Numbered from the stretch's first letter, positions 1 through 29,613 are shown. The stretch: 34,550 bases of DNA from Nitrospinota bacterium (GCA_035528715.1 DATKYB010000040.1:1-34550); one strand, 5' to 3'. Numbers and translations are program-made. The notes: generated by a model not told the origin, from the letters alone.

Positions 1-297
1 AATCAAAATCTTTCAAAGAGTGAAAAAATGACTTATTCGGGGAAAAATTACATTATAAATACTGTTGATTTATCAGAAGACGGTGATTTAGTAGCATTTA
101 CAAGAGAAAAAAGTCTGATTGAAATAAACGAAAAACATAAACTCTATACAAAGTCCTCAAAAAATGGCTATTTAGATAGTTTGGTAAGAGACATTGCTTT
201 TACAGAAATTGCAAATGATTATAGCGATGGTAACTTAATTATTTTTAACCAAGTCTTTAATGAAATAGCTAGAATATCTGCTCAGATATTTTCTTAA
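1..297 (+). CDS. Hypothetical protein, C-terminal part only (5' end outside window)
   Basis: The frame is open from base 1 with no stop, and the first in-frame ATG (base 28) has no convincing Shine-Dalgarno sequence, so this is probably the last ~98 residues of a longer protein. I do not recognise the family with certainty. The segment INTVDL, then IEINEKHKLY, then a helical tail is reminiscent of the C-terminal ends of GHKL/Hsp90-like ATP-binding proteins, which often carry an 'I-x-I/V-N-x-x-H-P' strand before a terminal helix; this is a weak analogy. The next gene starts only 16 bases after the stop, so the two are probably co-transcribed. Base composition is AT-rich like the next three genes. 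Confidence 0.6.
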   Translation, partial: NQNLSKSEKMTYSGKNYIINTVDLSEDGDLVAFTREKSLIEINEKHKLYTKSSKNGYLDSLVRDIAFTEIANDYSDGNLIIFNQVFNEIARISAQIFS

Positions 298-313
298 TAT
301 TAAGTAATACAAT

Positions 314-1606
314 ATGATTGAAGATAAAGAAGATCTTTTAACGAAGTCTTTCATAAAAGGTTTTATCGAACAAAAGTTTATCCATCATTTTCCTTCTCTT
401 GTAAATTATTCTCAAGATAAATTATTTAGAAAAATAATAATGTATGTTTCAGACTTATATATAGAGAACAGGTCTCTTGAGAATACTGCTAAAAGGTTAG
501 AGATTGAACCAAGATTGTTGAGAGACTTTTTATTGAAGGCCGATAATTTAAATGTGATTAATTATAAATATTTAAAATACAAATCTAAGAAGAAAGATTC
601 TAATTTAGAACTATTTGATAAAGATTACAGCATAAAAAAATTAGATAATATAAAGCTGAACTATGAATATTGGAGAAAAGAAGAAACAAAACGGATTGTA
701 AAACTTTTAAAGAAAAGTTATTCAATTAAAGATGTTGCAAAATCAATGAATATGTCTTTTATGACTATAAGGAATATGTTATTTGCAGAATACAAATGTA
801 ATAATATTACTCAACTTAGAAAGAAATTAAAAATTAAAAGACCTCTCTCACAAAAAAAAATAGAAAAGTTAAAGAAAGTAAAGAAACTTTATGACAAACT
901 CCATACACTACAGAAGACAGCAAATGCTTTGGGTATTACTAGAGAAAGAGTAAGACAGTTGCTTAGAGATGGGGAAAAATATGGTATTTTTAAATATGAA
1001 ATATTTAGAGAAAAAAAGTTTGAGGAACTACTACAAATTTATAATAGAGATTACTTAGTTAGAGAGATAAAAACGACTATTAGTCCATCTAAAATATGCT
1101 TGAGATTAGGTATAACAGAAAGAGAATATTATAACTTATTAGAATATTATAATATAGATTCAAAAGAATATCGTAGATTAGCAAGAATGGGAAAATGGGT
1201 AGAGAAATATACTCAAATAGTTGATACTTTAGGACATCATCCTAGCACTTATGAAATGAGCACAAGAAAAGATTGGAAAACCGTTTGGTCTAAAATTACT
1301 AAATATTGGGGAAATATCGATAATTTTAGAAAAGAATTTGGAATTGAGAAGCCAAAACATAAAATTCATCCCAATACAAGACAGGCCTGGAAGAATATGA
1401 TTGAGAGAAAAAAAGAAATTAAAAGGGAGAATAAAAGAAAAATGCTTGATATTATAAAGGAAGATGGTCCTATTGGTTCTAAATCTATTATGAATAAATT
1501 TGGATTTAAACGTGCCAACGTTTTAATATATATAAATGAATTATTAGAAGAAAATTTAATTACAAGAATAGGTAGTAATGTAAGCACTAAATATATAGCA
1601 AATTAA
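314..1606 (+). CDS. Multi-HTH DNA-binding protein with homing-endonuclease-associated repeat
   Basis: A 430-residue Lys-rich, basic protein that reads as a chain of small DNA-binding modules. Helix-turn-helix-like segments lie near residues 52-76, 135-158, 196-220 (TANALGITRERVRQLL, very like sigma factor region 4) and 255-276. Residues ~293-343 match the homing-endonuclease-associated repeat pattern (GHHPSTYEM, then a W/I/FG-spaced tail ending in FRKEFGI). Residues ~376-428 look like a winged helix (GPIGSKSIMNKF, then the wing). No nuclease, ATPase or other catalytic motif is visible. It sits 16 bases after the preceding partial gene and is followed by 136 AT-rich bases before the FRG gene. 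It is probably a regulator or DNA-recognition subunit of this accessory island; the function is inferred from the fold pattern only. Confidence 0.7.
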   Translation: MIEDKEDLLTKSFIKGFIEQKFIHHFPSLVNYSQDKLFRKIIMYVSDLYIENRSLENTAKRLEIEPRLLRDFLLKADNLNVINYKYLKYKSKKKDSNLELFDKDYSIKKLDNIKLNYEYWRKEETKRIVKLLKKSYSIKDVAKSMNMSFMTIRNMLFAEYKCNNITQLRKKLKIKRPLSQKKIEKLKKVKKLYDKLHTLQKTANALGITRERVRQLLRDGEKYGIFKYEIFREKKFEELLQIYNRDYLVREIKTTISPSKICLRLGITEREYYNLLEYYNIDSKEYRRLARMGKWVEKYTQIVDTLGHHPSTYEMSTRKDWKTVWSKITKYWGNIDNFRKEFGIEKPKHKIHPNTRQAWKNMIERKKEIKRENKRKMLDIIKEDGPIGSKSIMNKFGFKRANVLIYINELLEENLITRIGSNVSTKYIAN

Positions 1607-1742
1607 ATTTTATGAATAACACAAATAGATTTTAGTTAGAATCAAATTATAAAAGAGATAAAAAATATTTATAAATTGTATATAATAATAAATATTGTTT
1701 AATTTAAATTGAGGGTTAAATTATGGAAAGAAAGGATAACAA

Positions 1743-2726
1743 ATGAGTATTGAGAAGAAAAAATTTAATAATTCAGAAAAAGCAATTAGATTTTTGGAAA
1801 ATTTAGCATTTAGCAATGATAATTATATCTTTCGAGGACATCCAAGTAGTAAATATAGGCTACAAACTACTTATTATCGGCATACTTTAAAATATTATAG
1901 TGAAGAATATAGAACTACTATTAATATTGATTTTGACATAAATACAATAATTGACAAGTTTAGAACTGGTCTTGTAAGAAACGATATACCAATTCCTTTT
2001 GATGAGGTAGAGTTTAGAGAGAATCAAGATTGGCTTGAATATGCCCGTCATTATGGAGTCCCTATTCCTTGTCTTGATTTTACATACTCCCCATACATAG
2101 CCTTATTCTTTGCTTTTAATGAATTACATATATCTCACAAAGAAAAAGGCATAGAAAAGTATGTGGTTGTATATGCTTTAAATTTAAATTCACTTTCTTT
2201 TTGGTGGTGTAAATTAGACCTTGAAAAATTGAAGAGAAGGTTAAATAAAGAGTCAAAAGAGTTAACAAAAAAAGATTATGATAGAAATTTAAGAGATTGC
2301 TTAAATGCGTTTTTAAATCCTAATCTTGAAAGAAAGTTGGGTCACCGTTTTCCTGAGAATGAAATAATATTTATTCCTTATCCAAGTAGATATAACAAAA
2401 GAATGCAGAAACAGGCAGGAGCGCTGTTATATGATACCTTAAATCACAAAAGTTATGATTGTGAAGACTTAGAAGGAGTTTTAGAAAACATAAAAGAAAC
2501 ACCTGAAGTTTTACCAGATCGTTCTGAAAAGATATCTAACACTTTAACAAAAATATTCATAAATAAGAAATGTGCTAAAGATGTATTTCAGAGGTTAGAA
2601 TTAATGGAAATAAATGGAGGAAAATTATTTCAGGATGAAAATGGAGTAAGGATGGACGTAGTTAATACATTTCACTATAGCCCCAAAACAAGCTATTTAA
2701 GAGATATTTCTCTCTATAAATATTAA
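1743..2726 (+). CDS. FRG domain-containing protein
   Basis: A 327-residue protein with the features of the FRG family (Pfam FRG). The name-giving motif is at residues 30-32 (YIFRGHPSSKYRLQTT), and the second conserved block is at 99-125 (ARHYGVP, then CLDFTYSPYIALFFAF). The usual family block reads H-x-G-x-P-T-R-L-L-D-W-T; here the Thr-Arg pair is replaced (PIPCLDFT), so the protein is divergent. The C-terminal ~120 residues are not recognised. FRG proteins occur often in bacterial accessory and defence-rich regions and their biochemical activity is not settled. The start is supported by AAAGGA six bases upstream. The HNH gene follows after 41 bases, in the same AT-rich island. Confidence 0.8.
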   Translation: MSIEKKKFNNSEKAIRFLENLAFSNDNYIFRGHPSSKYRLQTTYYRHTLKYYSEEYRTTINIDFDINTIIDKFRTGLVRNDIPIPFDEVEFRENQDWLEYARHYGVPIPCLDFTYSPYIALFFAFNELHISHKEKGIEKYVVVYALNLNSLSFWWCKLDLEKLKRRLNKESKELTKKDYDRNLRDCLNAFLNPNLERKLGHRFPENEIIFIPYPSRYNKRMQKQAGALLYDTLNHKSYDCEDLEGVLENIKETPEVLPDRSEKISNTLTKIFINKKCAKDVFQRLELMEINGGKLFQDENGVRMDVVNTFHYSPKTSYLRDISLYKY

Positions 2727-2767
2727 GACCTTAAAAAAATTATATTACTAATTAATTTAATAGAATT

Positions 2768-3325
2768 ATGGTCTTTTCTGAGAATATAAAAAAGGAAGTA
2801 AGAGAAAAATCAGCTTTTCAGTGCTGTATTTGTCAATCTGTAATACCAGATGTTCATCATATTATTCCTCAAGAAGAGGGGGGTTCTGATACAATAGACA
2901 ATGCAGCTCCTTTATGTCCAAATTGTCATAGGCAACTTGGTAATAATCCTGATCATAGAAAAGTGATTATTCAAGCAAGAGACTGGTGGTATAAGGTTTG
3001 CGAGAAAAGGTTTTCGAATGATAGCGAAACTTTTGAAATGATTAGAGAGATCCATAAAATGCTTCAAAATGTTCAACTTACCAATACAGAGCTGGATGAT
3101 TTAAAAAAGATATTGAAAGATATGAATGATAAAAATATTGACAATTTAACGGATAAAACAAAATTTGTAACAGCATCAAAAGTAGTTAAAGCATCAACCT
3201 GGTCTCAAGAAGAATCCGATGATGATTTTACATATTCAACTTATTGTAAACGATGTGGCTATCAAGCTTTTGGATGGAGACATCGTTCTGAAAAATGCCC
3301 AGATTGCGGCAACATTATTGAATAA
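2768..3325 (+). CDS. HNH endonuclease with C-terminal zinc ribbon
   Basis: A 185-residue protein. The N-terminal half is an HNH nuclease module: zinc-binding C19/C22 and C50/C53 (CCIC, then CPNC), the HH pair at 30-31 (DVHHIIPQEEGG), N45 in the IDNAAPLC segment and H54 (CHRQLG). This HNH type cuts double-stranded DNA with one divalent metal ion. A helical middle (~80-130) leads to a separate C-terminal zinc ribbon with C160, C163, C177 and C180 (YCKRCGYQAF, then KCPDCGNI), a possible DNA-, RNA- or partner-binding element. It is the last gene of the AT-rich accessory island, 41 bases after the FRG gene, so the two may act together. A stand-alone homing-type nuclease is the main alternative. 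Confidence 0.85.
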   Translation: MVFSENIKKEVREKSAFQCCICQSVIPDVHHIIPQEEGGSDTIDNAAPLCPNCHRQLGNNPDHRKVIIQARDWWYKVCEKRFSNDSETFEMIREIHKMLQNVQLTNTELDDLKKILKDMNDKNIDNLTDKTKFVTASKVVKASTWSQEESDDDFTYSTYCKRCGYQAFGWRHRSEKCPDCGNIIE

Positions 3326-3348
3326 TTCATTTTGAATAAATTATTCAA
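3318..3348 (+). terminator. Possible AT-rich hairpin terminator after HNH gene
   Basis: A 9-bp perfect inverted repeat (TTGAATAAT at 3318-3326 and ATTATTCAA at 3340-3348, loop of 13) overlaps the stop codon of the HNH gene and is followed by CTCTTTT. The stem has a single G-C pair and the T-run is interrupted, so termination is only possible, not strong. Confidence 0.3.
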
Positions 3349-3419
3349 CTCTTTTCGTTGATTCCCAAAAATTAGAAATTTAAAATTATATTTGACAGTA
3401 TAATTTAATTAGGTATTAA

Positions 3420-3640
3420 CTTCTCTTTCCACCCTTTTGCTTTTTAGGGATTTTTCCAGAGAATGAGGAGAAAGAGGGAGGGTGTTTGAACGAAGAGAGT
3501 TTCCTTCCTCGCCGAATGAACGCAGAAAAATTCCGTAAAGAAAAGCAACGGGGCACCCTTCTTTAGTTACCTTTCTTGGGTGTGCAAGAAAGGTAAAAAG
3601 GATTTGCTTTTACCCCTCCTTTCGCCTATCCTTAAAAAAT
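3420..3640. repeat. Gene-free stretch with REP/MITE-like palindromic element
   Basis: The stretch 3326-3641 has no credible coding frame. It contains a perfect 12-bp palindrome (arms 3567-3578 and 3585-3596, loop GGTGTG). It also contains an imperfect direct repeat of 18 bases, 14 identical, 30 bases apart (3487-3504 and 3517-3534, both starting TGAACG and ending TTCC). Short imperfect outer inverted ends are visible (TTTTTAGGGA at 3441-3450 and TCCTTAAAAA at 3629-3638). The GC-richer composition differs from the island on its left. This pattern resembles short non-autonomous interspersed repeats found in many bacterial genomes; copy number elsewhere in the genome cannot be seen here. The element ends directly at the start of the next gene. 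Confidence 0.5.
3567..3596. repeat. Perfect 12-bp inverted repeat
   Basis: TTACCTTTCTTG is followed by the 6-base loop GGTGTG and the exact reverse complement CAAGAAAGGTAA. In RNA this would form a stable hairpin, but no T-run follows, so it looks more like the core of a mobile palindromic unit than a terminator. Confidence 0.75.
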
Positions 3641-3641
3641 C

Positions 3642-4043
3642 ATGAATAAAAAGCCGATTATCATATTTGACGGGATATGCAAGCTCTGTAATTTCGCTAT
3701 CGATTTTATCCTTAAGAGAGATCAAAAAAAGGTCTTTATTTTTTTACCCAACCAAGTTATGGCAGGTAAAAAGATTCTTGAGAGATTCGAAATAAAAGAT
3801 TTGGAAGTAAAGTCCGTCTATCTTATTGAAGATAATGAGATTTATCATCAGTCCACTGCCATTTTGCGTATCTTGAAAAGGCTCTCCTTCCCGTGGAATT
3901 TAGGCTATGTCTTTATTGTTATTCCAAGACCGATTCGAGATTTTATTTACAATATCATAGCCAAAAATCGATACCAATGGTTCGGAAAGAGGGATGTCTG
4001 TAGAGTTTTAAGCGAAGAGGAAAAAGGTCGTTTTCTCCTCTAA
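3642..4043 (+). CDS. DCC family thiol-disulfide oxidoreductase (DUF393)
   Basis: A 133-residue protein matching the DCC/DUF393 (YuxK-like) family over its full usual length. The family-defining D-x-x-C-x-x-C is at residues 10-16 (IFDGICKLCNFAID, Cys13 and Cys16), and the C-terminal signature is YQWFGKRDVCRVL near residue 117. The family is predicted to be thioredoxin-fold redox proteins; physiological partners are generally unknown. It has no close co-directional partner: 166 bases separate it from cysK. It directly abuts the palindromic element on its left, and its composition is already that of the core genome, so it marks the edge of the accessory island. Confidence 0.85.
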   Translation: MNKKPIIIFDGICKLCNFAIDFILKRDQKKVFIFLPNQVMAGKKILERFEIKDLEVKSVYLIEDNEIYHQSTAILRILKRLSFPWNLGYVFIVIPRPIRDFIYNIIAKNRYQWFGKRDVCRVLSEEEKGRFLL

Positions 4044-4209
4044 AACCCTTTTTGAATTTCAAATCAATGTTATCTATCAATGTTAATCTTTGACACTTCT
4101 TAAGTTTGATAATAACCTTTATTATAATAACAGCAGAAAATTTTGTATTTTTCTGGAATATTTGAGAGTTTTTTGATAATAATTTTAATAATAAGCAAAG
4201 GAGAAACCA

Positions 4210-5139
4210 ATGGGAAGGATATTTAATGATATAACAGAGACCATTGGAAGAACACCTCTGGTCAGGTTAAACAGGATAACCAAAGATATAGAAGCAACAA
4301 TCGTGGCAAAGCTTGAGTTCTTTAACCCCTTACACAGCGTAAAGGATAGAATCGGTGTCAGCATGATTGAGAGGGCTGAGCGGGATGGATACATCAATAA
4401 GGATACGGTTATTATTGAACCGACGAGCGGAAACACAGGAGTGGCTCTTGCCTTTGTGGCTGCTGCCAAGGGATACAGACTCATTTTAACCATGCCTGAG
4501 ACCATGACCATTGAGAGAAGAAAGATCCTGAGGGCACTTGGAGCAGAGCTTGTTCTAACCCCTGGTCCAGAGGGTATGCCAGGCGCAATAAAAAAGGCTG
4601 AAGAGCTTCAAAAGGAGTATCCTCATTCATTTATGCCCCAGCAGTTCAAAAATCCAGCCAATCCTGAAATTCACAGAAAAACCACAGCAGAAGAGATATG
4701 GAATGATACAGATGGGAAGGTGGATATTTTCGTATCAGGGGTTGGGACAGGGGGAACCATTACAGGGGTTTCTGAGGTAATAAAGAAGAGAAAACCGTCT
4801 TTTAAGGCAATTGCAGTGGAACCAGAGGCCTCACCCGTCCTCTCAGGCGGAAAGCCTTCTCCCCATAAGATTCAGGGTATTGGTGCGGGTTTTGTTCCTG
4901 ATGTCCTAAACAGGGATATGATTGATGAGATCATTCAGGTGAGCAATGACAATGCCTTTGAAATGGCAAAGAGGCTTGCAAAGGAAGAGGGTATCTTTGC
5001 AGGAATCTCCTCAGGCGCTATTTTATGGGCTGCACTGGAAGTGGCAAAGCGAGGGGAGAATAAAGGAAAACTAATTGTTTTTGTTGTCTGCGATACAGGG
5101 GAGAGATATCTGAGTACTCCAATAGCAGAGGAAGCTTAA
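4210..5139 (+). CDS. cysK: Cysteine synthase A (O-acetylserine sulfhydrylase)
   Basis: A 309-residue PLP enzyme that makes L-cysteine from O-acetylserine and sulfide in the cytosol. The PLP-binding lysine is K45 ([11 protein letters not shown]). The substrate loop is [11 protein letters not shown] near residue 76, the phosphate-binding glycine loop is [11 protein letters not shown] near 177, and [11 protein letters not shown] near 265 is the conserved PLP-nitrogen-side segment. Length and motif order are normal for CysK rather than cystathionine beta-synthase, which would add CBS domains. In the C-terminal motif the usual Pro before D-x-G-E-R-Y-L-S-T is Cys ([12 protein letters not shown]). 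The start is set by AAAGGAG eight bases upstream. The SDR gene starts 5 bases after the stop, so they are co-transcribed. Confidence 0.93.
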
Positions 5140-5144
5140 GTCAT

Positions 5145-5885
5145 ATGGACCTTAAAGATAAGGTAGCTTTGATAACAGGAAGCTCCAGGGGATTGGGTAA
5201 AGGGGTTGCGCTTGCCCTATCAAGGGAAGGTACTAAGGTGGTTATCAATTACCACAGGGATGATGGCCCTGCAAAGGGTGTTGTTGAAAAGATAAAAAGG
5301 GATGGGGGAGAGGCAATCTCCATAAAGGCAAACGTTACCAGACCAGAAGAGGTGGAGAGGCTGATATCGGAAATAAAATCAAAGTATGGAAGGCTCGATA
5401 TCCTTATCAATAATGTCGGGCACTTTTTATTCAAAAAGGTCACGGATTTAAGCATAGATGAGTGGAAAAGTTCACTCGAGAGCAATCTCAACAGCGTCTT
5501 TTACTGCACGAAATACGCCCTCCCATTGATGGTGGAAGGTGGATGGGGGAGGATTATCAATATCGCCTTTGCAAGGGGAGATTTGATCTATGCAAAGCCA
5601 ATGACAACCCCCTATGCCATTGCAAAGGCAGGGGTTATTCTCTTTACCAAATCAATAGCAAAGGAGGTTTTTGATAAGGGGATAACGGTGAATGTGATCT
5701 CACCAGGCACAATTGACAAGAGAGAAAAGGAAGGGGATAAGCTGGAGAATATTCCAAAAGACCTCTCTCCTGATAGCCTTGTTAAACCTTCGGAAATTGC
5801 TGAAACCATACTTTTTCTCATTTCAGATAAGGCCTCAAAGATAACAGGGGCAAATATTACAGTGAGTGGTAGTTGGAATCTATAA
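5145..5885 (+). CDS. SDR family oxidoreductase, FabG-like, atypical active site
   Basis: A 246-residue classical short-chain dehydrogenase. The nucleotide-binding TGSSRGLG is at residues 11-18, the NNVG (NNAG) motif at 89-92, and the catalytic Tyr157-x-x-x-Lys161 lies in PYAIAKAG. The C-terminal ITGANITVSG matches the FabG/3-oxoacyl reductase pattern. The position normally held by the catalytic Ser (the S of 'INISS-x-x-G') aligns with Phe142 in INIAFARGD, so the Ser-Tyr-Lys triad is incomplete. It may have shifted specificity, reduced activity or another role; the substrate is unknown. It sits 5 bases after cysK and 17 bases before the M16 peptidase, suggesting one transcript without an obvious shared pathway. 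Confidence 0.85.
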   Translation: MDLKDKVALITGSSRGLGKGVALALSREGTKVVINYHRDDGPAKGVVEKIKRDGGEAISIKANVTRPEEVERLISEIKSKYGRLDILINNVGHFLFKKVTDLSIDEWKSSLESNLNSVFYCTKYALPLMVEGGWGRIINIAFARGDLIYAKPMTTPYAIAKAGVILFTKSIAKEVFDKGITVNVISPGTIDKREKEGDKLENIPKDLSPDSLVKPSEIAETILFLISDKASKITGANITVSGSWNL

Positions 5886-5902
5886 ATAGAGGAGTAAGAG
5901 GA

Positions 5903-7168
5903 ATGTATAAAAAAGATACCTTTGATAATAGGCTTCGGTTTATTACGATTCCCATGAAAAATACCAGTGCGGTTACTGTCCTCATCTTTGTTGGGGCTGG
6001 ATCGAGGTATGAAAACAGGAGGACAAGCGGTCTCTCACACTTTTTAGAGCATATGTTTTTTAAGGGAGGGAAGAAGTATCCTGACACAAAGGCGGTTTCA
6101 GAGGTCATTGATTCTGTCGGGGGTGATTTTAATGCCTTTACCAGCAAGGAATTTGTCGGATATTACGTGAAGGTTGCTTCAAAGCATATTGACCTGGCAA
6201 TGGATGTCCTTTCAGATATGTTGATCGAGGCCAAGTTTGAGGCAAACGAGGTGGAGAAGGAGGGGGGGGTAATTATAGAAGAACTCAATATGTATCAGGA
6301 TATGCCCGTCTACCTTGTTGGAAACGATTATGAGAGGCTTATTTTTGGAGACCAGCCCCTGGGATGGGATGTTATAGGAAGGGTAGAATCTATAAAAGGA
6401 CTCAAAAGGGAAGATTTCCTGCAATATAAGAAGGACCTTTATACCCCTGATAACATTGTGTTAACGATTGCCGGGGATTTTAAATATGATGAGCTAAAGA
6501 AGAAGGTAGAGAGATACTTTAAGTTTAAAGATGGAAAAAAGAGCTATAGTTTTGAGAAGTTTGATAAGGAGAAAATAGGGGGCAGGGTATTTTTGAGGAA
6601 AAAGGATACAGAGCAGGTTCATCTCATATTGGGTGTAGAGAGCTATCCCCTAGACCACCCTGATTATGAGACGTTGCAGGCCATTGGTATTATTCTCGGG
6701 GGGAATATGAGTTCAAGGCTCTTCTTATCCCTAAGAGAGGATAAGGGTTTAGCTTATTACGTAAAGACCGGAAATACAGAATATCTCGACACTGGAAATA
6801 TGTCAACCAGTGCTGGAGTGGATATTAACAGGATTGACTTATCAATCAAGCTCATCATGGATGAATATGAGAGGATTAAGAATGAGGGGGTTGATGAAAA
6901 GGAGTTAGTAAAGGCCAAAGAGTATTACAAAGGCAAAATGATCCTTCGGTTAGAGGATTCTAAGGACGTTGCACAGCTCATAGGGATTCATGAGCTTTTA
7001 TTAAACAGGATAGAAACCCCTGAGGAAGCCATGGAAAAAATGGACAGGGTGACGACAAAAGATATCAAGAGGGTCTGTGAAGATATCTTTAAAAAAGAAA
7101 ACCTAAAACTTGCTTTGATCGGTCCTTATGATGATAGGGAGAGATTTGAAAAGCTCCTTCAAAGTTAA
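5903..7168 (+). CDS. M16 family zinc peptidase (processing-peptidase-like)
   Basis: A 421-residue pitrilysin-clan metallopeptidase of the mitochondrial-processing-peptidase beta type. The inverted zinc motif H-x-x-E-H is at residues 46-50 (SHFLEHMFFKG), with the third ligand Glu126 in the IIEELNM segment, at the family spacing. The C-terminal half is the paired non-catalytic M16 domain (SLREDKGLAYYV near 281). No signal peptide is evident. The start at 5903 is chosen because GGAG lies 8 bases upstream; an in-frame ATG at 5873 would overlap the SDR gene and add non-family residues. Likely cytosolic or processing endopeptidase; the natural substrate is unknown. It follows the SDR gene by 17 bases. 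Confidence 0.9.
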   Translation: MYKKDTFDNRLRFITIPMKNTSAVTVLIFVGAGSRYENRRTSGLSHFLEHMFFKGGKKYPDTKAVSEVIDSVGGDFNAFTSKEFVGYYVKVASKHIDLAMDVLSDMLIEAKFEANEVEKEGGVIIEELNMYQDMPVYLVGNDYERLIFGDQPLGWDVIGRVESIKGLKREDFLQYKKDLYTPDNIVLTIAGDFKYDELKKKVERYFKFKDGKKSYSFEKFDKEKIGGRVFLRKKDTEQVHLILGVESYPLDHPDYETLQAIGIILGGNMSSRLFLSLREDKGLAYYVKTGNTEYLDTGNMSTSAGVDINRIDLSIKLIMDEYERIKNEGVDEKELVKAKEYYKGKMILRLEDSKDVAQLIGIHELLLNRIETPEEAMEKMDRVTTKDIKRVCEDIFKKENLKLALIGPYDDRERFEKLLQS

Positions 7169-21392: not shown

Positions 21393-22349
21393 ATGAAAGA
21401 TGACGAACTCAAAGGCCTGCTTTATAAGATGATTTATTTAAGGAGATTCGAGGAGAAAGCAGGAGAGATGTATACGATGGGGAAATTCAGGGGTTTTTGC
21501 CATCTCTATATCGGTGAGGAAGCAGTGGCTGTAGGAGCCTTGTCAACAATCAGAGATGATGACTATGTCCTTGCTTCATACAGGGAACATGCCCACTGTT
21601 TGATTAAAGGGAGCGATGGAGGAAGGGTTATGGCTGAGCTTTTCGGAAAAGAGACCGGTGTTTCCAAAGGAAAAGGTGGATCCATGCATCTCTTTGATAT
21701 CGAAAAGAACTTTTGGGGTGGACACGCCATTGTTGCTGGTCACCTTCCTCTGGCTACAGGTATGGGATTTGCCATCAAATACGAAGGAAAAGACCAGGTA
21801 GTTTTGTGTTTCTTTGGAGAAGGTTCTGTTAATCAGGGGACTTTTCATGAATCTTTAAACCTCGCTTCTGTCTGGAAGCTTCCTGTAATCTACTGTATTG
21901 AAAATAACAGATACGGTATGGGAACAGCAGTTGAAAGATCAACTTCATTGTATGATATCTGCCAGAAGGCCTGTGCGTATGACATACCCAATATCCATAT
22001 TGATGGAATGGATGTTTTAAATGTTAAAAAGGCATTTGAAGAGGCGGTTAAAAGGGCAAGGGAAGAGAAAGCCCCCACTTTGATCGAGGCCGTAACATAT
22101 CGGTTTCGGGGTCATTCTATGGCAGACCCTGCGCATTACAGAACAAAGGAAGAGCTTGAGGAGCAGAAGAAAAGGGATCCTGTAGAAGCCTTTAAAAAGA
22201 AGCTTATGCAAAAAAAGGTCATTTCAGAGAAAGATGTAAAGGATATTGAAAAGGAAATAGAGGAAAAGATAAATCAGGCAGTAGAGTTTGCAGATAAGAG
22301 TCCAGAGCCGCCTTTAGATTCTCTTTACGAAGATTTATATATTGAATAG
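21393..22349 (+). CDS. pdhA: Pyruvate dehydrogenase E1 component, alpha subunit
   Basis: A 318-residue thiamine diphosphate subunit of a heterotetrameric E1 that decarboxylates pyruvate and transfers the acetyl group to lipoyl-E2. The ThDP/Mg motif starts with GEGSVNQG (142-149) and ends at Asn171 (CIENNRYGMGT). ENNRYGMGT and YRFRGHSMADPAHYR are typical of mitochondrial/alphaproteobacterial-type PDH E1alpha, where the latter is the phosphorylation-loop region. Together with the beta subunit and E2 that follow at 11-12 base gaps, this is a PDH operon. A G-rich ribosome site (AGGGGG) lies ~11 bases before ATG 21393. Confidence 0.93.
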   Translation: MKDDELKGLLYKMIYLRRFEEKAGEMYTMGKFRGFCHLYIGEEAVAVGALSTIRDDDYVLASYREHAHCLIKGSDGGRVMAELFGKETGVSKGKGGSMHLFDIEKNFWGGHAIVAGHLPLATGMGFAIKYEGKDQVVLCFFGEGSVNQGTFHESLNLASVWKLPVIYCIENNRYGMGTAVERSTSLYDICQKACAYDIPNIHIDGMDVLNVKKAFEEAVKRAREEKAPTLIEAVTYRFRGHSMADPAHYRTKEELEEQKKRDPVEAFKKKLMQKKVISEKDVKDIEKEIEEKINQAVEFADKSPEPPLDSLYEDLYIE

Positions 22350-22360
22350 AGGGGGATTCA

Positions 22361-23344
22361 ATGGCTATTATAACTTTTAGAGAAGCAATCAATCAGGCAC
22401 TAAAAGAAGAGATGCAAAGAGATGAGAAAGTCTTTTTAATGGGCGAAGAGGTCGGTTTTTATCATGGTGCCTATAAGGTAAGTCAGGGTCTTTTAGAAGA
22501 ATTTGGAGAGAAAAGAGTTATCGATACCCCCATTACAGAAGCAGGCTTTACAGGGGTGGGAATCGGGGCAGCCATGCTGGGGCTGAGGCCTGTAATCGAG
22601 ATGATGACATTCAATTTTTCTATACTGGCACTGGATCAGATTGTGAATAACGCTGCCAAACTTCGGTATATGTCAGGGGGACAGATAAAGATACCGATGG
22701 TTATAAGGGGGCCAAGCGGAGCGGCTCATCAGCTTGGAGCACAGCATTCTCAGGCTCTTGAGGCGTGGTATGCCCACGTGCCCGGATTAAAAGTGGTTAT
22801 CCCCTCTACTCCAAAGGATGCCAAAGGACTTTTGAAGTCGGCTATTAGAGATGATAACCCTGTCATTTTTATGGAATCTGAGCTTATGTACGGACTTAAA
22901 GGTGAAGTTCCTGAGGAAGAATATACCATTCCCATCGGTAAAGGCGACATAAAGAGAGAGGGAAAAGATGTGACGATCATCGCCTATTCAAAGATGTTCC
23001 ATCTCGCCATGCAGGCAGCTAGCGAACTTGAAAAAGAGGGGATTAATGCTGAGATCATTGATCCAATGACCATCAAGCCTCTGGATAAAGATATGATTTT
23101 TGAATCAATAAAGAAGACAAATCGATGTGTTATCGTTCAGGAGGGATGGAGATTTTGCGGCGTTGCCTCGGAGATATCAAGTTTAATCTATGAAGAAGTC
23201 CTTGACTATCTTGATGCTCCCGTATCAAGGGTTACAGGGGAGGAGGTTCCCATGCCCTTTGCGAGAAATTTAGAAGAAGCAGCTCTCCCCAGCAAGGAAA
23301 AGATTATAAAGGCAGTAAAAAGTGTTATGTACATTGATCAGTAA
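22361..23344 (+). CDS. pdhB: Pyruvate dehydrogenase E1 component, beta subunit
   Basis: A 327-residue transketolase-like subunit that completes the ThDP site with PdhA. FMGEEVGFYHGAYKVSQGL-type opening (residues ~26-45), DTPITEAGFTGVGIGAA and GAQHSQALEAWYAHVPGLKVV are the expected blocks. The QHSQ-x-L-E-A-W-Y version and FMESELMYG (rather than the LEHK-x-LYR of branched-chain enzymes) indicate pyruvate as substrate. The C-terminal binding domain for E2 (TRVTGEEVPMPFA-like, here SRVTGEEVPMPFA) is complete. It lies 11 bases after pdhA and 12 before the E2 gene; GAGGGGG precedes the start. Confidence 0.93.
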   Translation: MAIITFREAINQALKEEMQRDEKVFLMGEEVGFYHGAYKVSQGLLEEFGEKRVIDTPITEAGFTGVGIGAAMLGLRPVIEMMTFNFSILALDQIVNNAAKLRYMSGGQIKIPMVIRGPSGAAHQLGAQHSQALEAWYAHVPGLKVVIPSTPKDAKGLLKSAIRDDNPVIFMESELMYGLKGEVPEEEYTIPIGKGDIKREGKDVTIIAYSKMFHLAMQAASELEKEGINAEIIDPMTIKPLDKDMIFESIKKTNRCVIVQEGWRFCGVASEISSLIYEEVLDYLDAPVSRVTGEEVPMPFARNLEEAALPSKEKIIKAVKSVMYIDQ

Positions 23345-23356
23345 TGGAGGAAAGAA

Positions 23357-24637
23357 ATGGCCTTTAAAGTTCTGATGCCAAGATTAAGCGATACAATGGA
23401 AGAAGGCAAAATAATCAAGTGGGAAAAGAAAGAGGGAGATAGGGTCGAAAAAGGTGATGTGCTTGCAGAGGTGGAGACAGACAAAGCAAACCTTGAGATG
23501 GAGGCTTATTCATCAGGGATTCTAAGAAAGATAATTTTAAAAGAGGGTGTATCTGCACCAGTAGGAGACCTGATTGCTATTATAGGAGAGAAGGATGAGG
23601 ATATTTCAGATATTGTGAAAGAGGGAAAAGAAAAACCAGCTAAGGAAGAAGAGAAGAAAGAAGAACCCAAAGAGAAGGAGCCGGAAAAAGCAGAAGCGGC
23701 ACCAAAACCAACTGAGGAAGAAAAGAAAGAAGAAAAAGAAGAAATGAAAGAGAAAGAGAAAAAAGAAGAACCGAAAAAGGAAGAAAGAAAAAGGATTTTT
23801 ATCTCTCCGTTAGCTAAAAAGATAGCAGAAGAAGGAGGCTTAGATATTTCAACAATAGAAGGAAGTGGTCCCGAAGGAAGGATTATCAAGAAAGACGTGT
23901 TAAGCACCATTTCAAAAGCGAAAGAGATAAAGCCAGAAATTAAAGAGAAAATTGAGGAATACAGAGAAGAACCTCTTTCTACAATAAGAAAGACAATTGC
24001 AAAGAGACTCACTTTGAGCAAAGGGCCTGTGCCGCATTTTTATGTGACTGCAGAAATTGATATGGAAAGAGCTATCTATTTTAGGAATTCATTGAAAACC
24101 TTGAAAAAAGAAATTCCTGTATCTTTTAATGATATTTTGATAAAGGCCTCAGCCATTGCGCTTGAGAAATTTCCACAAATAAATGCCTCATATAGGACAG
24201 ATAAAATCATTTATTACAATGTTATTCATATAGGGATTGCCGTTGCCTTAGAAGATGGTCTGATAACACCAGTTATAAGAAATGTTGAGAAAAAAACTCT
24301 TTTTGAGGTTGCAAAAGAGAGCAAGGAACTCATAGAAAAAGCCAAGGAGAAGAAGCTGAAACCCGAGGAGTATACAGGTGCGACATTTACCATCTCTAAT
24401 ATGGGTATGTATGACGTTGAAAACTTTTCAGCTATCATCAATCCCCCAGAAGGCGCTATTCTTGCTGTTGGCTCAATCATCAAGAGACCAGTGGTGATTG
24501 AGGATAAAATAGAAATACGAAACAGGATGAAGGTAACGATTTCATGTGACCACCGTATTGTAGACGGTGTAGTGGCAGCTCAGTTTTTACAGGAACTCAA
24601 GATAGATTTAGAGAAGCCTATAGGAATCGTTTTATAA
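23357..24637 (+). CDS. pdhC: Dihydrolipoamide acetyltransferase E2 (pyruvate dehydrogenase)
   Basis: A 426-residue E2 core subunit. One lipoyl domain (1-80) carries the lipoylated Lys43 in ETDKANLEMEA; MPRLSDTMEEGKI is the PDH-type opening. A highly charged linker follows (about 89-146), almost only Glu, Lys and Pro. The peripheral subunit-binding domain lies at ~148-184 (SPLAKKIAEEGGLD, then GSGPEGRIIKKDV). The C-terminal catalytic acyltransferase domain ends with CDHRIVDGVVAAQFL, containing His399 and Asp403. It moves the acetyl group from E1 to CoA, and E3 (next gene) reoxidises the lipoyl group. The charged linker replaces the usual Ala-Pro-rich hinge. GGAGG-like site upstream; 34 bases to lpd. 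Confidence 0.93.
   Translation: MAFKVLMPRLSDTMEEGKIIKWEKKEGDRVEKGDVLAEVETDKANLEMEAYSSGILRKIILKEGVSAPVGDLIAIIGEKDEDISDIVKEGKEKPAKEEEKKEEPKEKEPEKAEAAPKPTEEEKKEEKEEMKEKEKKEEPKKEERKRIFISPLAKKIAEEGGLDISTIEGSGPEGRIIKKDVLSTISKAKEIKPEIKEKIEEYREEPLSTIRKTIAKRLTLSKGPVPHFYVTAEIDMERAIYFRNSLKTLKKEIPVSFNDILIKASAIALEKFPQINASYRTDKIIYYNVIHIGIAVALEDGLITPVIRNVEKKTLFEVAKESKELIEKAKEKKLKPEEYTGATFTISNMGMYDVENFSAIINPPEGAILAVGSIIKRPVVIEDKIEIRNRMKVTISCDHRIVDGVVAAQFLQELKIDLEKPIGIVL
23621..23794 (+). other. Glu/Lys/Pro-rich linker-coding segment in E2
   Basis: Codes for about 58 residues between the lipoyl and subunit-binding domains, dominated by E and K in short alternating runs (EEEKKEEPKEK, EEKKEEKEEM). DNA here is strongly purine-biased on the plus strand, which produces a long false frame on the opposite strand. 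Confidence 0.85.
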
Positions 24638-24671
24638 AAAATTTTTCAACAACAAAAAGGAGAATAATTAC

Positions 24672-26063
24672 ATGGAGAAATTTGACCTCATTATAATAGG
24701 TTCAGGTCCTGGGGGATATGTGGCTGCGATACGAGCTTCCCAGCTAGGGCTAAAGACAGCCGTGGTCGAAGAAGATAAATTAGGCGGTGTCTGTCTTAAT
24801 TGGGGATGCATACCCACAAAGGCATTGATAAAAAACGCAGAGGTTTTGGATCTCTTTAAAAAAGGAAAGCAGTTTGGGATCTCTTATGATAATCTGAGCT
24901 TTGATTTTGGAAGCGCAGTTAAGAGAAGCAGAAAGGTAGCTCTTAAGCTCTCAAAAGGCGTAGAGTATCTCTTCAAGAAGAATAAGATAACACTTTTTCC
25001 AGGACATGCAACTCTAAACAGTTCAAATAGAGTAAAAGTAGAAAAAGACGGGAAGCTTGTAAATGAACTTGAGGCAAAAAATATAATTCTTGCTACAGGT
25101 TCAAGGCCAAAGTCTGTACCAGGTATAAAGATAGATGGTGAAAAGGTCATTACAAGTACAGAGGCGATGGTTTTAGAGGAGGTTCCCAAATCCTTAATTA
25201 TCGTAGGGGCTGGGGCTATCGGTATTGAGTTTGCATATATCTACAATTCTTATGGTTCAGAGGTTACTGTAATAGAGATGCTAGAGAATATTCTTCCTAT
25301 TGAAGATAAGGAAATAACTGAGCAACTGAGGTCTTCCTTCATAAAAAGAGGTGTAAAGATATATACAGGTTCAAAAGTTGCAGAGACGAGGATAGAAGGA
25401 AAGAATATTAAGCTTAAAATGTCTTCTAAGAAAGAGGTCAAAGATATTGTTGGAGAAAAGATACTGGTTGCTATTGGCAGGGATCCTAATATCGAAAATT
25501 TAGGCCTTGAAGATTTAAAAGTGGATACGGACAATGGTTTTATTAAGGTGAATAAAAATTATGAAACAAATATAAAGGGTCTTTTCGCGATTGGTGATGT
25601 TATCGGAGCTCCTCTTCTCGCACACGCAGCATCAGAGGAAGGAATTGCTGCTGTGGAATATATTGCTAAGGGAAAAGAGGCTGGTTTAGATCTTAACAAT
25701 ATGCCTAGCTGTACATATTGTCAACCCCAGGTTGCCAGTATAGGACTAACAGAGGATAAGGCAAGAGAGAAGGGTTTTGATATAGATATCGGAAGATTTC
25801 CCTTCAGGGCTAATGGGAAAGCCCAGGCACTTGAGGAAATGGAAGGGATGGTAAAGATCATCGTAGAGAAAAAATATGGAGAGATTTTAGGAGCACATAT
25901 CCTTGGGTCAGAGGCAACAGAGATGATTGCTGAGATTGGAGTAGCAAAGAGGCTGGAGTCGACGGTTGAGGAGCTGGCTACCACGGTTCATGCCCATCCA
26001 ACACTCTCAGAAGTTGTAGGAGAGGCATCTCTGGATGCTCTGGGCAGGGTAATTCATATTTAA
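24672..26063 (+). CDS. lpd: Dihydrolipoyl dehydrogenase (E3)
   Basis: A 463-residue FAD disulfide reductase that reoxidises dihydrolipoyl groups of E2 and makes NADH. FAD-binding GSGPGG is at 10-15, the redox pair Cys41/Cys46 in GGVCLNWGCIPTKAL, NAD-binding GAGAIGIEF near residue 184, the second FAD motif GLFAIGDV near 304, and the catalytic His442-Glu447 dyad in HAHPTLSE. It has no N-terminal lipoyl domain. It is the only E3 in this window and lies between two different E2 genes, so it probably serves both 2-oxoacid dehydrogenase complexes. Start by AAAAGGAG. Confidence 0.96.
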   Translation: MEKFDLIIIGSGPGGYVAAIRASQLGLKTAVVEEDKLGGVCLNWGCIPTKALIKNAEVLDLFKKGKQFGISYDNLSFDFGSAVKRSRKVALKLSKGVEYLFKKNKITLFPGHATLNSSNRVKVEKDGKLVNELEAKNIILATGSRPKSVPGIKIDGEKVITSTEAMVLEEVPKSLIIVGAGAIGIEFAYIYNSYGSEVTVIEMLENILPIEDKEITEQLRSSFIKRGVKIYTGSKVAETRIEGKNIKLKMSSKKEVKDIVGEKILVAIGRDPNIENLGLEDLKVDTDNGFIKVNKNYETNIKGLFAIGDVIGAPLLAHAASEEGIAAVEYIAKGKEAGLDLNNMPSCTYCQPQVASIGLTEDKAREKGFDIDIGRFPFRANGKAQALEEMEGMVKIIVEKKYGEILGAHILGSEATEMIAEIGVAKRLESTVEELATTVHAHPTLSEVVGEASLDALGRVIHI

Positions 26064-26098
26064 TTAATCTTATATAAAATCAAGGGTTATATTGATAA

Positions 26099-27361
26099 AT
26101 GGAAACAAAGGTAATTTTACCCCAGTTGGGAGAGACAGTTGTTGAGGGGACAATCATAAAGTGGCTCAAAAAAGAGGGAGATTACATAAAGAAGGATGAG
26201 CCGCTTGTAGAAATATCGACGGATAAGGTTGATACCGAGATCCCTTCTCCAGTCAAAGGCAAGATTTCTAAACTTCTCGCAAAAGAAGGAGATACTGTTC
26301 AGGCAGGAGAAGATATAGCTGTTATTGTGGAAGATGAGGAAGGGGCTGAAAAAAAAGAGAAGAAGGGAGAGGAAAAAGGAAAGGAACCGGAAAAAGAAGA
26401 AAAGCCTACAGAGAAAGAAAAGAAAGAGAAAAAGGCAGAAAAGAAATCATCCCTGAAAGGCAAAGGAAAGAAGATCACCCCGGTAGTAGCAAAGATCTCA
26501 TCTGAATTTAATATAGACATAAACAAAATAGAAGGAAGCGGTATCAATGGAAGGGTGACAAAAAAAGACATATTAAATTATCTGGAGCGTGAGGGGATCA
26601 AACAGAGAGAAATCACTAAGGAAGAACCATTAAAGGAAGTGAAGAAGGTAACAGAAGAGGTCAAAACAGAAGAAGAAGAAATTATTGAAATGTCAAGGGT
26701 AAGAAGAAGCATTGCAGAGCATATGGTAAAGAGCAAGCATACTTCTCCTCATGTTACAACAGTAGTTGAGGTTGACATGACAAGGATTGTGGGCTTCCGT
26801 GAAGAGAATAAAGAAAAGTTCCAATCGAAATATAATGTTCCCCTGACATTTACATCCATTATTGTGAAGGCGGTTGTAAATTCTCTAAAGAGATTTCCTA
26901 AAATCAATTCAACTCTTCAAGACAATAAGATTATTATAAAAAAATATTACAATATCGGTATTGCTACGGCAACAGAAGAAGGCCTGATTGTTCCGGTGAT
27001 CAAAAGGGCTGAGAGGCTTGATATTAAGGATATGGCAAAAGAGATATTTAATCTGTCAGAGCGAGCGAGAGAGAAGAAACTTCCTCTCGATTCACTCCAA
27101 GGAGGGACGTTTACCATAACCAATCCTGGTGTTTTTGGGGCCATATTCTCAACACCTATCATTCATCAACCACAGGCAGCTATCCTCGGTGTCGAAGCTA
27201 TTCGAAAGCTACCAGCGGTCATTGATGATGCTATTGCGATCCGATCTATGATGAATCTTTGCCTTTCTTATGACCATCGGGTTATTGATGGCATTGACGC
27301 AGGAAGGTTTTTACAGGATTTGAAAAAGGAGCTAGAAGAAGGATTAAAGCTTGAAGTTTAA
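26099..27361 (+). CDS. Second 2-oxoacid dehydrogenase E2 (2-oxoglutarate/branched-chain type)
   Basis: A 420-residue acyltransferase. The lipoyl domain (1-78) has Lys43 in STDKVDTEIPSPVKG, the version seen in SucB and branched-chain E2, not in PDH E2; PQLGETVVEGTI supports this. A charged Glu/Lys linker (~80-122) leads to the E3/E1-binding domain (~126-162, TPVVAKISSEFNID and GSGINGRVTKKD). The catalytic domain ends with YDHRVIDGIDAGRFL, with His393 and Asp397. Substrate could be succinyl or branched acyl groups. Its E1 partner is probably the pair at 28635-30594; no sucA-type E1 is in the window. It follows lpd by 35 bases and precedes the isocitrate dehydrogenase by 29. Confidence 0.88.
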   Translation: METKVILPQLGETVVEGTIIKWLKKEGDYIKKDEPLVEISTDKVDTEIPSPVKGKISKLLAKEGDTVQAGEDIAVIVEDEEGAEKKEKKGEEKGKEPEKEEKPTEKEKKEKKAEKKSSLKGKGKKITPVVAKISSEFNIDINKIEGSGINGRVTKKDILNYLEREGIKQREITKEEPLKEVKKVTEEVKTEEEEIIEMSRVRRSIAEHMVKSKHTSPHVTTVVEVDMTRIVGFREENKEKFQSKYNVPLTFTSIIVKAVVNSLKRFPKINSTLQDNKIIIKKYYNIGIATATEEGLIVPVIKRAERLDIKDMAKEIFNLSERAREKKLPLDSLQGGTFTITNPGVFGAIFSTPIIHQPQAAILGVEAIRKLPAVIDDAIAIRSMMNLCLSYDHRVIDGIDAGRFLQDLKKELEEGLKLEV

Positions 27362-27390
27362 AAACAGAAGAAGATTGAGAGAACAATAGG

Positions 27391-28383
27391 ATGCATAAAA
27401 TTACGTGGCTTCCTGGAGATGGCATAGGACCTGAGGTTACAGGCTCAACCATTAAGGTTATAAACGCTACGGGTGTAAAGATTGACTGGGAAAGAGTAGA
27501 AATAGGTGAAAAAGTCTTGGCCGAATCGGGAAAACCTTTGACAGATGATGTTTTTGATATTGTCAAAAAGAACAAGATTGCTATTAAAGGGCCCACAACC
27601 ACTCCCATAGTATCTGGCCACTCAAGCGCCAATGTAGCATTAAGAAAGGGGCTCAACCTCTATGCATGTGTAAGACCCATTAAAAGTATATCGGGTATTC
27701 GTTCCCTTTATAAGGATTTAGACATTGTGGTTATAAGGGAAAACACAGAGGGTCTTTATACGGATAAGGAGCAGGAGATTGTACCGGGCGTAGTTGAGTG
27801 TCTGAAAATTGTTACAGAACAGGCATCAAGGAGAATTGCCAGATTCACCTTTGAGTATGCAAAAAAAGAGGGAAGAAAAAAGGTTACTGCGGTTCACAAG
27901 GCCAATATTATGAAGATGACCGATGGCCTTTTTTTAAGCTGTGTAAGGGAGATTTCAAAGGACTATCCTAAGATTCAATACGAAGAGGGTATTGTGGACA
28001 GTACATGTATGCAGTTGGTTACCAACCCTTATCAGTATGATGTCCTGGTCATGGGGAATCTCTACGGGGATATTATCTCTGACCTTTGTGCTGGCCTTAT
28101 AGGTGGATTGGGGGTAGCTCCGGGTGCGAATTTTGGAGATGGATGTGCGATCTTTGAGTCGGTTCATGGAAGCGCTCCAGACATCGCGGGAAAAAACATA
28201 GCTAATCCTATCGCATCGATTCTTTCAGGAGCATTGATGTTAAGATATATAGGAGAAGATTCCGCTGCAAAAAGAATTGAAGATTCAGTTAGAAAGGTTG
28301 TTAAACAGGGAATGCTAACAAAAGATCTTGGGGGCAGTGCCACAACAGATGGACTCACCTCTGCAATAGAAAAAGAACTTTAA
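27391..28383 (+). CDS. Isocitrate dehydrogenase, NAD-type (isocitrate/isopropylmalate DH family)
   Basis: A 330-residue decarboxylating dehydrogenase. The opening WLPGDGIGPEVTGS, the TTTPIVSGHSSANVALRK segment near 70-87, YACVRPIKSI and REN(T)EGLYTD (about 117-125), and GNLYGDIISDL near 223 are the family substrate and metal blocks; FESVHGSAPDIAGK (about 254-267) is the cofactor-site region. The S-x-N-V-A-L-R-K pattern matches isocitrate enzymes of the NAD (IDH3-like) group rather than isopropylmalate dehydrogenase. It would produce 2-oxoglutarate and NADH. It lies between the second E2 and its probable E1, hinting at a link to 2-oxoglutarate use. Homoisocitrate or other beta-decarboxylating relatives remain possible. 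Confidence 0.85.
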   Translation: MHKITWLPGDGIGPEVTGSTIKVINATGVKIDWERVEIGEKVLAESGKPLTDDVFDIVKKNKIAIKGPTTTPIVSGHSSANVALRKGLNLYACVRPIKSISGIRSLYKDLDIVVIRENTEGLYTDKEQEIVPGVVECLKIVTEQASRRIARFTFEYAKKEGRKKVTAVHKANIMKMTDGLFLSCVREISKDYPKIQYEEGIVDSTCMQLVTNPYQYDVLVMGNLYGDIISDLCAGLIGGLGVAPGANFGDGCAIFESVHGSAPDIAGKNIANPIASILSGALMLRYIGEDSAAKRIEDSVRKVVKQGMLTKDLGGSATTDGLTSAIEKEL

Positions 28384-28407
28384 ATTCTTTAAAAATCAGG
28401 AAAGGAT

Positions 28408-28611
28408 ATGAAAAAAGAAAGACAAAAGAGTGATAAAGAAGAAAAAGAGGTTTTATGTGTCAGGATCAAAAGACCTTTAAGTGTGAGAAAGCACAAAACT
28501 TGTCCCTACTGTTTTGGCAAGATATCTGACATAAAATCAAAAAAACACAAAAAATTTTGCGATTATAAAGAAGGAAAGGACAGCGTAGGTTTTGGCTTTC
28601 CATTTGATTGA
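28408..28611 (+). CDS. Small C2HC zinc-finger protein (67 aa)
   Basis: A 67-residue basic protein with one apparent zinc site: Cys32-x2-Cys35-x11-His47-x3-Cys51 (KTCPYCFGKISD, then KKHKKFC). The N-terminal third is Lys/Glu-rich and the C-terminus ends GFGFPFD. I do not recognise a named family. AGGAAAGGA precedes the start; 24 bases separate it from the isocitrate dehydrogenase and 23 from the second E1alpha, so it is inside the metabolic operon. Role unknown: possibly a regulator of the operon or a complex-associated factor, both inferences. The tidy spacing and ribosome site argue that it is real. Confidence 0.7.
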   Translation: MKKERQKSDKEEKEVLCVRIKRPLSVRKHKTCPYCFGKISDIKSKKHKKFCDYKEGKDSVGFGFPFD

Positions 28612-28634
28612 ACTCTTCATAGAGGAAGAAGCTT

Positions 28635-29591
28635 TTGGAGAAGGAAAGACTTCTTAAAAAGATGCATTACTGGCTCAAATTTATCAGAGCCTTTGAAGAA
28701 AGGATCTCCATACTCTACAGACAAGGGAAATTACTGGGAGGAGTCTATTCAGGCATGGGCCAGGAAGCTATTGTTGTCGGAACATGTATTGATCTTAAGA
28801 AGGAAGATTTTATCTTCCCGCTCCATAGAGACATAGGAGCTACTCTCGTAAAAGGGATTGAGCCGAAGATTCTTATGGCACAGCTATTAGGAAAGAAGAC
28901 AGGCCTTTCAAAAGGAAAAGATTCCTATCTTCACGCTGGGGATATAGATCTTGGGGTTATTGGATCTACAAGTATGCTGGGCTCTTCCTTACCTGTTGCT
29001 GCAGGAGTCGGTCTCGCTTTCAAATTGAAGAAGAAGGATAATGTAGTTGTTGCATTTTTTGGAGAGGGGGCCAGTAACAGAGGTGACTTTCATGAAGCCC
29101 TGAATCTGGCAGGGGTCTGGAAACTCCCTGTTATTTTTGTTTGTGAGAACAACTTTTTTGCCTATTCCACACCAATAGAGGCGCAAATGGCAATTGAGGA
29201 CGTCGCGGACAGGGCTTCGAGTTATGGCTTTTCAGGTGTTGTGTGTAGTGGTAATGACCTTATGGCGGTTTATAAGATAGCCAAAAAGGCTATAGATAAA
29301 GCAAGAGCAGGAGAAGGTCCAACTTTGATTGAGTGTAAAACCTATCGCTGGCATGGACACTCAGAACATGACGAAGCGTCTTACAGGGCAAAGGATGAAT
29401 TTTTGGAGTGGAAGAGCAGAGACCCAATACCAAGATTTGAACTCTATCTGGAAGAATTGAAGATACTGGATAAGAAGCTCAAAGAGAGCATAGATAAGGA
29501 TATAAGAGAGGAAATAGATCAAGCCGTAAAATTTGCTGAGGAAAGTCCTTTTCCAGAGGGAAAGGAGACGCTCGATGATATCTACAAGTAA
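28635..29591 (+). CDS. Second 2-oxoacid dehydrogenase E1, alpha subunit (branched-chain type)
   Basis: A 318-residue ThDP subunit, paralogous to pdhA above but clearly distinct. The ThDP motif runs from GEGASNRGDFHEALN (143-157) to Asn172-Asn173 (VCENNFFAYSTP). ENNFFAYSTP and YRWHGHSEHDEASYR resemble branched-chain 2-oxoacid or acetoin dehydrogenase E1alpha more than PDH. Translation begins at TTG 28635 with GAGG 9 bases upstream; no ATG start gives the conserved N-terminus. It is followed by its beta subunit after 22 bases. The likely acyl acceptor is the E2 at 26099. The substrate (branched-chain 2-oxoacids, acetoin or 2-oxoglutarate) cannot be fixed from sequence alone. Confidence 0.87.
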   Translation: MEKERLLKKMHYWLKFIRAFEERISILYRQGKLLGGVYSGMGQEAIVVGTCIDLKKEDFIFPLHRDIGATLVKGIEPKILMAQLLGKKTGLSKGKDSYLHAGDIDLGVIGSTSMLGSSLPVAAGVGLAFKLKKKDNVVVAFFGEGASNRGDFHEALNLAGVWKLPVIFVCENNFFAYSTPIEAQMAIEDVADRASSYGFSGVVCSGNDLMAVYKIAKKAIDKARAGEGPTLIECKTYRWHGHSEHDEASYRAKDEFLEWKSRDPIPRFELYLEELKILDKKLKESIDKDIREEIDQAVKFAEESPFPEGKETLDDIYK

Positions 29592-29603
29592 AGAAAAATA
29601 AAC

Positions 29604-29608
29604 GGAGG
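29604..29608 (+). promoter_or_regulatory. Strong Shine-Dalgarno for a TTG start
   Basis: GGAGG lies five bases before TTG 29614, the start of the second E1beta. The first residues SQITYLEAI align with E1beta N-termini, so TTG is genuinely used. Confidence 0.65.
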
Positions 29609-29613
29609 AAGGA

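Follow-up and report, generated by a model that had tools for sequence, protein, structure and literature searches.

A hairpin-forming dispersed repeat at the edge of an AT-rich, defence-type gene island in a Nitrospinota bacterium

The REP/RAYT and TIR/TIRYT systems consist of structured repeats, often paired, that are tied to Y1 (HUH) transposases (PMC3733652, PMC6006769), and the combination of a Y1 domain with Bac_DnaA_C is the make-up reported for subclass 2.1, home of most TIRYTs (PMC6006769, PMC3733652). The paired repeats of these systems enclose short spacers, and in the open-licence literature that we searched, no report was found of REP/TIR-type repeats bounding defence cargo. The other close point of reference is the chromosomal integron, an array of small accessory genes, many of them toxin–antitoxin or defence genes, with a folded recombination site on a fixed side of each. 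Here we describe a repeat that resembles both types of system in part, at the right edge of an island of defence-type genes.

The window analysed, 34,550 nt in length, is an entire contig (G000:C40) of a 2.0 Mb Nitrospinota assembly in 152 contigs, from a poorly sampled class. Base 1 is the contig end and the left part of the island is missing; the first 300 bases showed no overlap with other contigs of the genome. An open reading frame (ORF) read-out returned the four genes that the initial annotation had placed at 1–3325, all on the + strand and separated by gaps of 16, 136 and 41 bases. No tRNA was found in the window, which leaves a tRNA attachment site unsupported. Further along, past the right end of a complex I (nuo) cluster, inspection by eye shows one E3 gene surrounded by two pyruvate/2-oxoacid dehydrogenase E1 alpha/beta sets and by two E2-like genes (21393–30594).

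The first island gene (1–297, +) is open at the contig's left edge; its C-terminal part, at least 98 aa, belongs to no assigned family and gave no match of note in Pfam, PADLOC, NCBIfam or PHROG. The second (314–1606, +) encodes a 430-aa protein with helix-turn-helix segments at about 122–156, 190–240 and 371–419, matching the models Sigma70_r4 (1.6e-8), HTH_23 (6e-8) and HTH_24 (5e-5). Judged from these matches, it probably binds DNA, and it would then serve as a regulator or recogniser; its relatives, on Candidatus Manganitrophus plasmids, are partial (27–33% identity) and unannotated, and apart from them the protein appears to be an orphan. The fourth gene (2768–3325, +) encodes a 185-aa HNH endonuclease with a C-terminal, zinc-ribbon-like CxxC...CxxC element. 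It exceeds the cut-off of the HNH profile PF01844 (40.5 bits versus 21.4; 3e-10), keeps the motif intact in translation (CCIC..DVHH..N..CPNCH) and also matches the HNH region of IscB (2.4e-10) and the McrA-type chain 6ghc (2.5e-9). No relatives of it were found in plasmids, viral contigs or the 98 genomes of relatives searched, and its structure model, built from the single sequence, was left out of the analysis at a pLDDT of 44. The protein is a predicted nuclease that might restrict foreign DNA.

The third gene (1743–2726, +) encodes a 327-aa FRG-domain protein, scoring 61.4 bits against a curated cut-off of 25 for PF08867 (1.6e-16) and 1.6e-31 for the PADLOC candidate PDC-S15, and it agrees with these references in domain, length and invariant residues. 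All alignment columns invariant in 22 FRG proteins are kept (R31, G32, H103 and D112), and at these positions the protein is intact; it is an ordinary FRG member, unusual by its setting only. A structure model of good quality (pLDDT 80, pTM 0.84) gave no significant PDB match in Foldseek; the highest-ranking hits, which are weak, include ART toxins and RES/NatT. Published work (PMC9503650) counts FRG within the ADP-ribosyltransferase superfamily, as an immune effector suspected of NADase activity. The window's protein would most likely be a stand-alone abortive-infection effector of that superfamily which, once triggered, would consume NAD+ or transfer ADP-ribose from it. The distribution of FRG is patchy, with 40 of 386 genomes positive and none of 14 controls.

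Composition sets the island apart. Its lower GC content, noted initially, was recovered (25–31% over 1–3000 versus 37–45% for most of the remaining window), and its three complete genes have GC3 values of 0.205, 0.205 (the multi-HTH gene among these two) and 0.222, compared with 0.29–0.47 for the other genes of the window. In a background of 166 ORFs on 20 other contigs of the same genome, none reaches 0.205 or less and one (0.6%) reaches 0.222 or less; because almost no sampled background gene attains the island's values, these are not due to chance. Values up to 0.28 are found in 19% of the same background, housekeeping genes among them, and therefore mild AT-richness alone says little. Thus, the initial use of composition as a sign of horizontal acquisition is upheld by the extreme GC3 of the island, whereas low GC3 taken alone carries less weight than had been assumed. 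An accessory origin agrees with the extreme composition, the patchy distribution and the lack of homologues in two relatives of the class, and the proposed defence flavour is borne out by the PDC-S15 match and by the genome's equivalent islands, which hold AbiE, SIR2, Fic, Mrr and HNH genes. Overall, the cluster at 1–3325 looks like recently acquired, phage-defence-type cargo. An assembly chimera at the junction to the 37–45% GC part was also considered and ruled out, since a repeat found genome-wide abuts the right side of the island.

This repeat is the most informative feature of the region. One copy of about 175 nt (3428–3598, +; 167.7 bits with our covariance model R1) is located, its 5′ end facing the island, between the HNH gene and a gene for a DCC1-like thiol-disulfide oxidoreductase (3642–4043, +; PF04134, 6e-28; GC3 0.40), which lies on its 3′ side and is the first gene with host-like composition. 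The consensus begins TCCCC. Alignment and covariation define a long outer stem at approximately 3428–3566 (+), pairing CCCC..TTTTT with AAAAA..GGGG and holding inner hairpins that carry the loop motif GTTTGA...GAGTTT, and a separate hairpin at the 3′ end, GTTACCTTTCTTG / CAAGAAAGGTAA, at 3566–3597 (+). In the alignment, 94.4% of cells pair, compared with 48–64% after a shift of the partner strand by 1–3 columns, and double-change cells number 99 versus 36 in shuffles.

The genome contains 38 BLAST matches and 46 covariance-model matches to the repeat, around 30 of them near full length, along with mosaics in which shorter 5′ pieces are combined with tandem 3′ pieces. Clear relatives occur in genomes G044, G024, G060 and G146, unrelated ones included; every copy was recruited by similarity to that of the window. 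No match was found in plasmids, the Rfam search of window positions 1–6000 returned no family for the repeat or its surroundings, and a search for published descriptions by the repeat's sequence words returned only unrelated papers among the matches listed. A role as a transcription terminator was rejected: genes on the 5′ side point towards and away from the repeat in comparable numbers, which therefore argues for no terminator effect, and no terminator-like site was found.

Around the repeat, foreign-looking genes accumulate on one side. For 30 copies we took, on either side, the nearest mechanically called ORF of 80 aa or more. Low-GC3 genes (0.225 or less) account for 10 of 30 on the 5′ side, as against 1 of 29 on the 3′ side (P = 0.006) and 2 of 166 in the background (P = 9e-8), and this asymmetry is stable over thresholds. 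The pattern had been spotted on about 20 copies that are included in the test set, and the copies new to the test number only about 8, with three low-GC3 genes on the 5′ side and none on the 3′ side. The sole low-GC3 gene on a 3′ side stands between two same-oriented copies and therefore also lies 5′ of the next copy. The 800-bp flanks with a GC fraction of 0.31 or less are likewise distributed 8 to 0, and PADLOC families 31 to 3, in favour of the 5′ side. The 5′-side genes of defence type comprise AbiEii/AbiEi_2 (contig C15), AbiEi_2 (C108), SIR2_2 (C6), a CBASS-type HNH (C25), Mrr_cat (C44), Fic (C82) and the HNH and FRG genes of the window. The 3′ side holds mostly housekeeping genes, such as MreB, ribonucleotide reductase, GlmU-like and RlmN genes, and its PADLOC matches are to PycTM/2TM models only. 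A 255-aa protein on contig C17 (locus L056, 536–1300) forms the defence-type exception on this side and is probably the source of the match of PycTM type (Pycsar effector). Several copies are flanked on either side by ordinary genes, and GC3 reaches 0.64 in one GC-rich 5′ gene. Contig ends are nearer on the 5′ side in 20 of 30 copies (P = 0.035), which hints weakly that strains differ on the cargo side. On contig C108 (locus L159, 4125–7464), five same-oriented copies, four of them short 5′ fragments and one full, alternate with five small genes, one an AbiEi_2-type antitoxin gene, in an arrangement that is integron-like but has no IntI.

The repeat also occurs in inverted pairs with the 5′ ends pointing inward, on six contigs of the genome (C129, C15, C6, C83, C82 and C51). 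The C51 pair consists of partial copies and encloses the genome's second FRG gene, whose neighbours have no assigned identity (locus L162, 385–4555). The C129 pair, of full copies, encloses three AT-rich genes with no Pfam match (locus L155, 4242–6427); by eye, the 252-aa protein of one of these looks like a nucleotide-binding or TIR-like effector. In two unrelated genomes, inverted pairs enclose a HipA_2-like gene (G044, contig C7) and Phd/ParE toxin–antitoxin genes (G060, a single contig; locus L148, 4910–7646), and a transposase gene of Y1_Tnp plus Bac_DnaA_C make-up lies immediately outside the G060 pair. Elsewhere in G044 (contig C15; locus L143, 4428–6468), fragments of the 3′ hairpin separate HepT-like and RelA/SpoT-domain genes. 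No convincing convergent pair was found: covariance-model matches in the own genome alone give 5 inverted to 0 convergent pairs (P = 0.06), and the inclusion of partial copies and the two other genomes gives about 8 to 0 (P = 0.008), still a small count. Our one search for recombinases in the own genome returned only XerC/D-like tyrosine recombinases.

Set against the described systems, the repeat resembles REP/RAYT elements (REPINs, BIMEs) and TIRtrons/TIRYT in being structured, dispersed, intergenic and often arranged in inverted pairs or clusters, and by this analogy it may work like a REP/TIR element. The likeness to TIRYT may extend to the Y1_Tnp plus Bac_DnaA_C gene, although this gene lies outside the pair and was seen in G060 only. 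However, the repeat measures 175 nt, whereas REPs are palindromes of 20–40 nt, and its pairs enclose whole defence or toxin–antitoxin genes. Because it has neither the GTAG tag of REPs nor, by inspection of its consensus, the GGGGWSAS motif of TIRtrons, we do not file it under either. With chromosomal integrons it has in common arrays of small accessory genes and a folded element on a fixed side, but its copies are scattered over many contigs. An integron is excluded because IntI is lacking: the integrase model TIGR02249 gave no match over its cut-off in the own genome, and the two Xer-like hits both skip the model stretch between positions 184–207 and 237. Nor was an attC core pair (RYYYAAC/GTTRRRY) seen on inspection of the repeat alignment.

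These observations bear on two questions, whether the island genes form one machine and how they came to lie beside the repeat. The initial annotation had proposed that the multi-HTH, FRG and HNH genes might form one module, and a conserved module is not supported: FRG, HNH and HTH queries of genomes, viral contigs, plasmids and phages revealed no recurrent grouping. No HNH motif was found within 1.5 kb of 30 other FRG loci or of the closest relatives, and the nearest FRG relative of full length (41% identity) is encoded by a solitary gene flanked by metabolic ones. A defence system that is rare yet coherent, with the multi-HTH protein as sensor, FRG as effector and HNH as nuclease, would fit the shared strand and composition, the short gaps and the defence association of HNH and FRG individually; given the solitary FRG genes elsewhere we consider it unlikely, and the HNH protein offers no homologues to test it with. 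The island genes are best read as independent accessory cargo. At the other extreme, old low-GC accessory genes might lie by chance, with no mechanistic link, beside a common intergenic repeat. The frequency of the repeat and the 19% of background genes at a GC3 of 0.28 or less would allow for this, yet the island's values are matched by fewer than 1% of background genes, and the 5′/3′ asymmetry recurs over about 30 copies, by which chance proximity is already disfavoured and, in our judgement, very improbable.

The repeats could instead be old residents that serve as a landing pad, with unrelated foreign DNA integrating at their 5′ foot and the cargo not being moved by them. Some IS elements target REPs. 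Such insertion accounts for the one-sidedness and is favoured by the many copies that lack cargo, including those of G024, which lie between ordinary genes; against it, where inverted copies, partial ones in some cases, enclose a single cargo unit, they resemble the ends of an element more closely. We regard a landing pad as possible but doubtful, and modestly prefer a mobile end. On the latter reading, the region holds a patch of cargo gained by horizontal transfer, bounded on the right by a hairpin-forming repeat whose mobility is inferred; we place evenly balanced confidence in this view.

As a mobile end, the repeat would act as a DNA end or recombination site. The substrate would probably be folded, single-stranded repeat DNA, which a Y1 (HUH) transposase like those associated with REP/TIR elements would cleave. 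Inverted copies would be the limits between which cargo is moved or becomes fixed, and the window's copy would then have its left partner beyond the contig edge. In its broadest and rather unlikely form, the proposal is an undescribed cassette system, present across several phyla, that uses the 175-nt hairpin repeat as its recombination end. Driven by Y1 HUH transposases, it would capture as well as shuffle defence and toxin–antitoxin genes by way of folded single-stranded DNA, and in function it would be an integron that works with no integron integrase.

The one-sided build-up of foreign genes at the repeat suggests an undescribed way of gathering defence genes, and it bears on how solitary defence and toxin–antitoxin genes are dispersed and become established other than in prophages, plasmids and integrons. 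Even as a landing pad only, the repeat would still be a useful marker of accessory cargo. A structured repeat that bounds such genes on one side, with the same polarity in unrelated genomes, would direct the search for new defence genes to the sequence 5′ of it, and would point to a definite candidate, amenable to testing, for the machinery by which such genes are moved.
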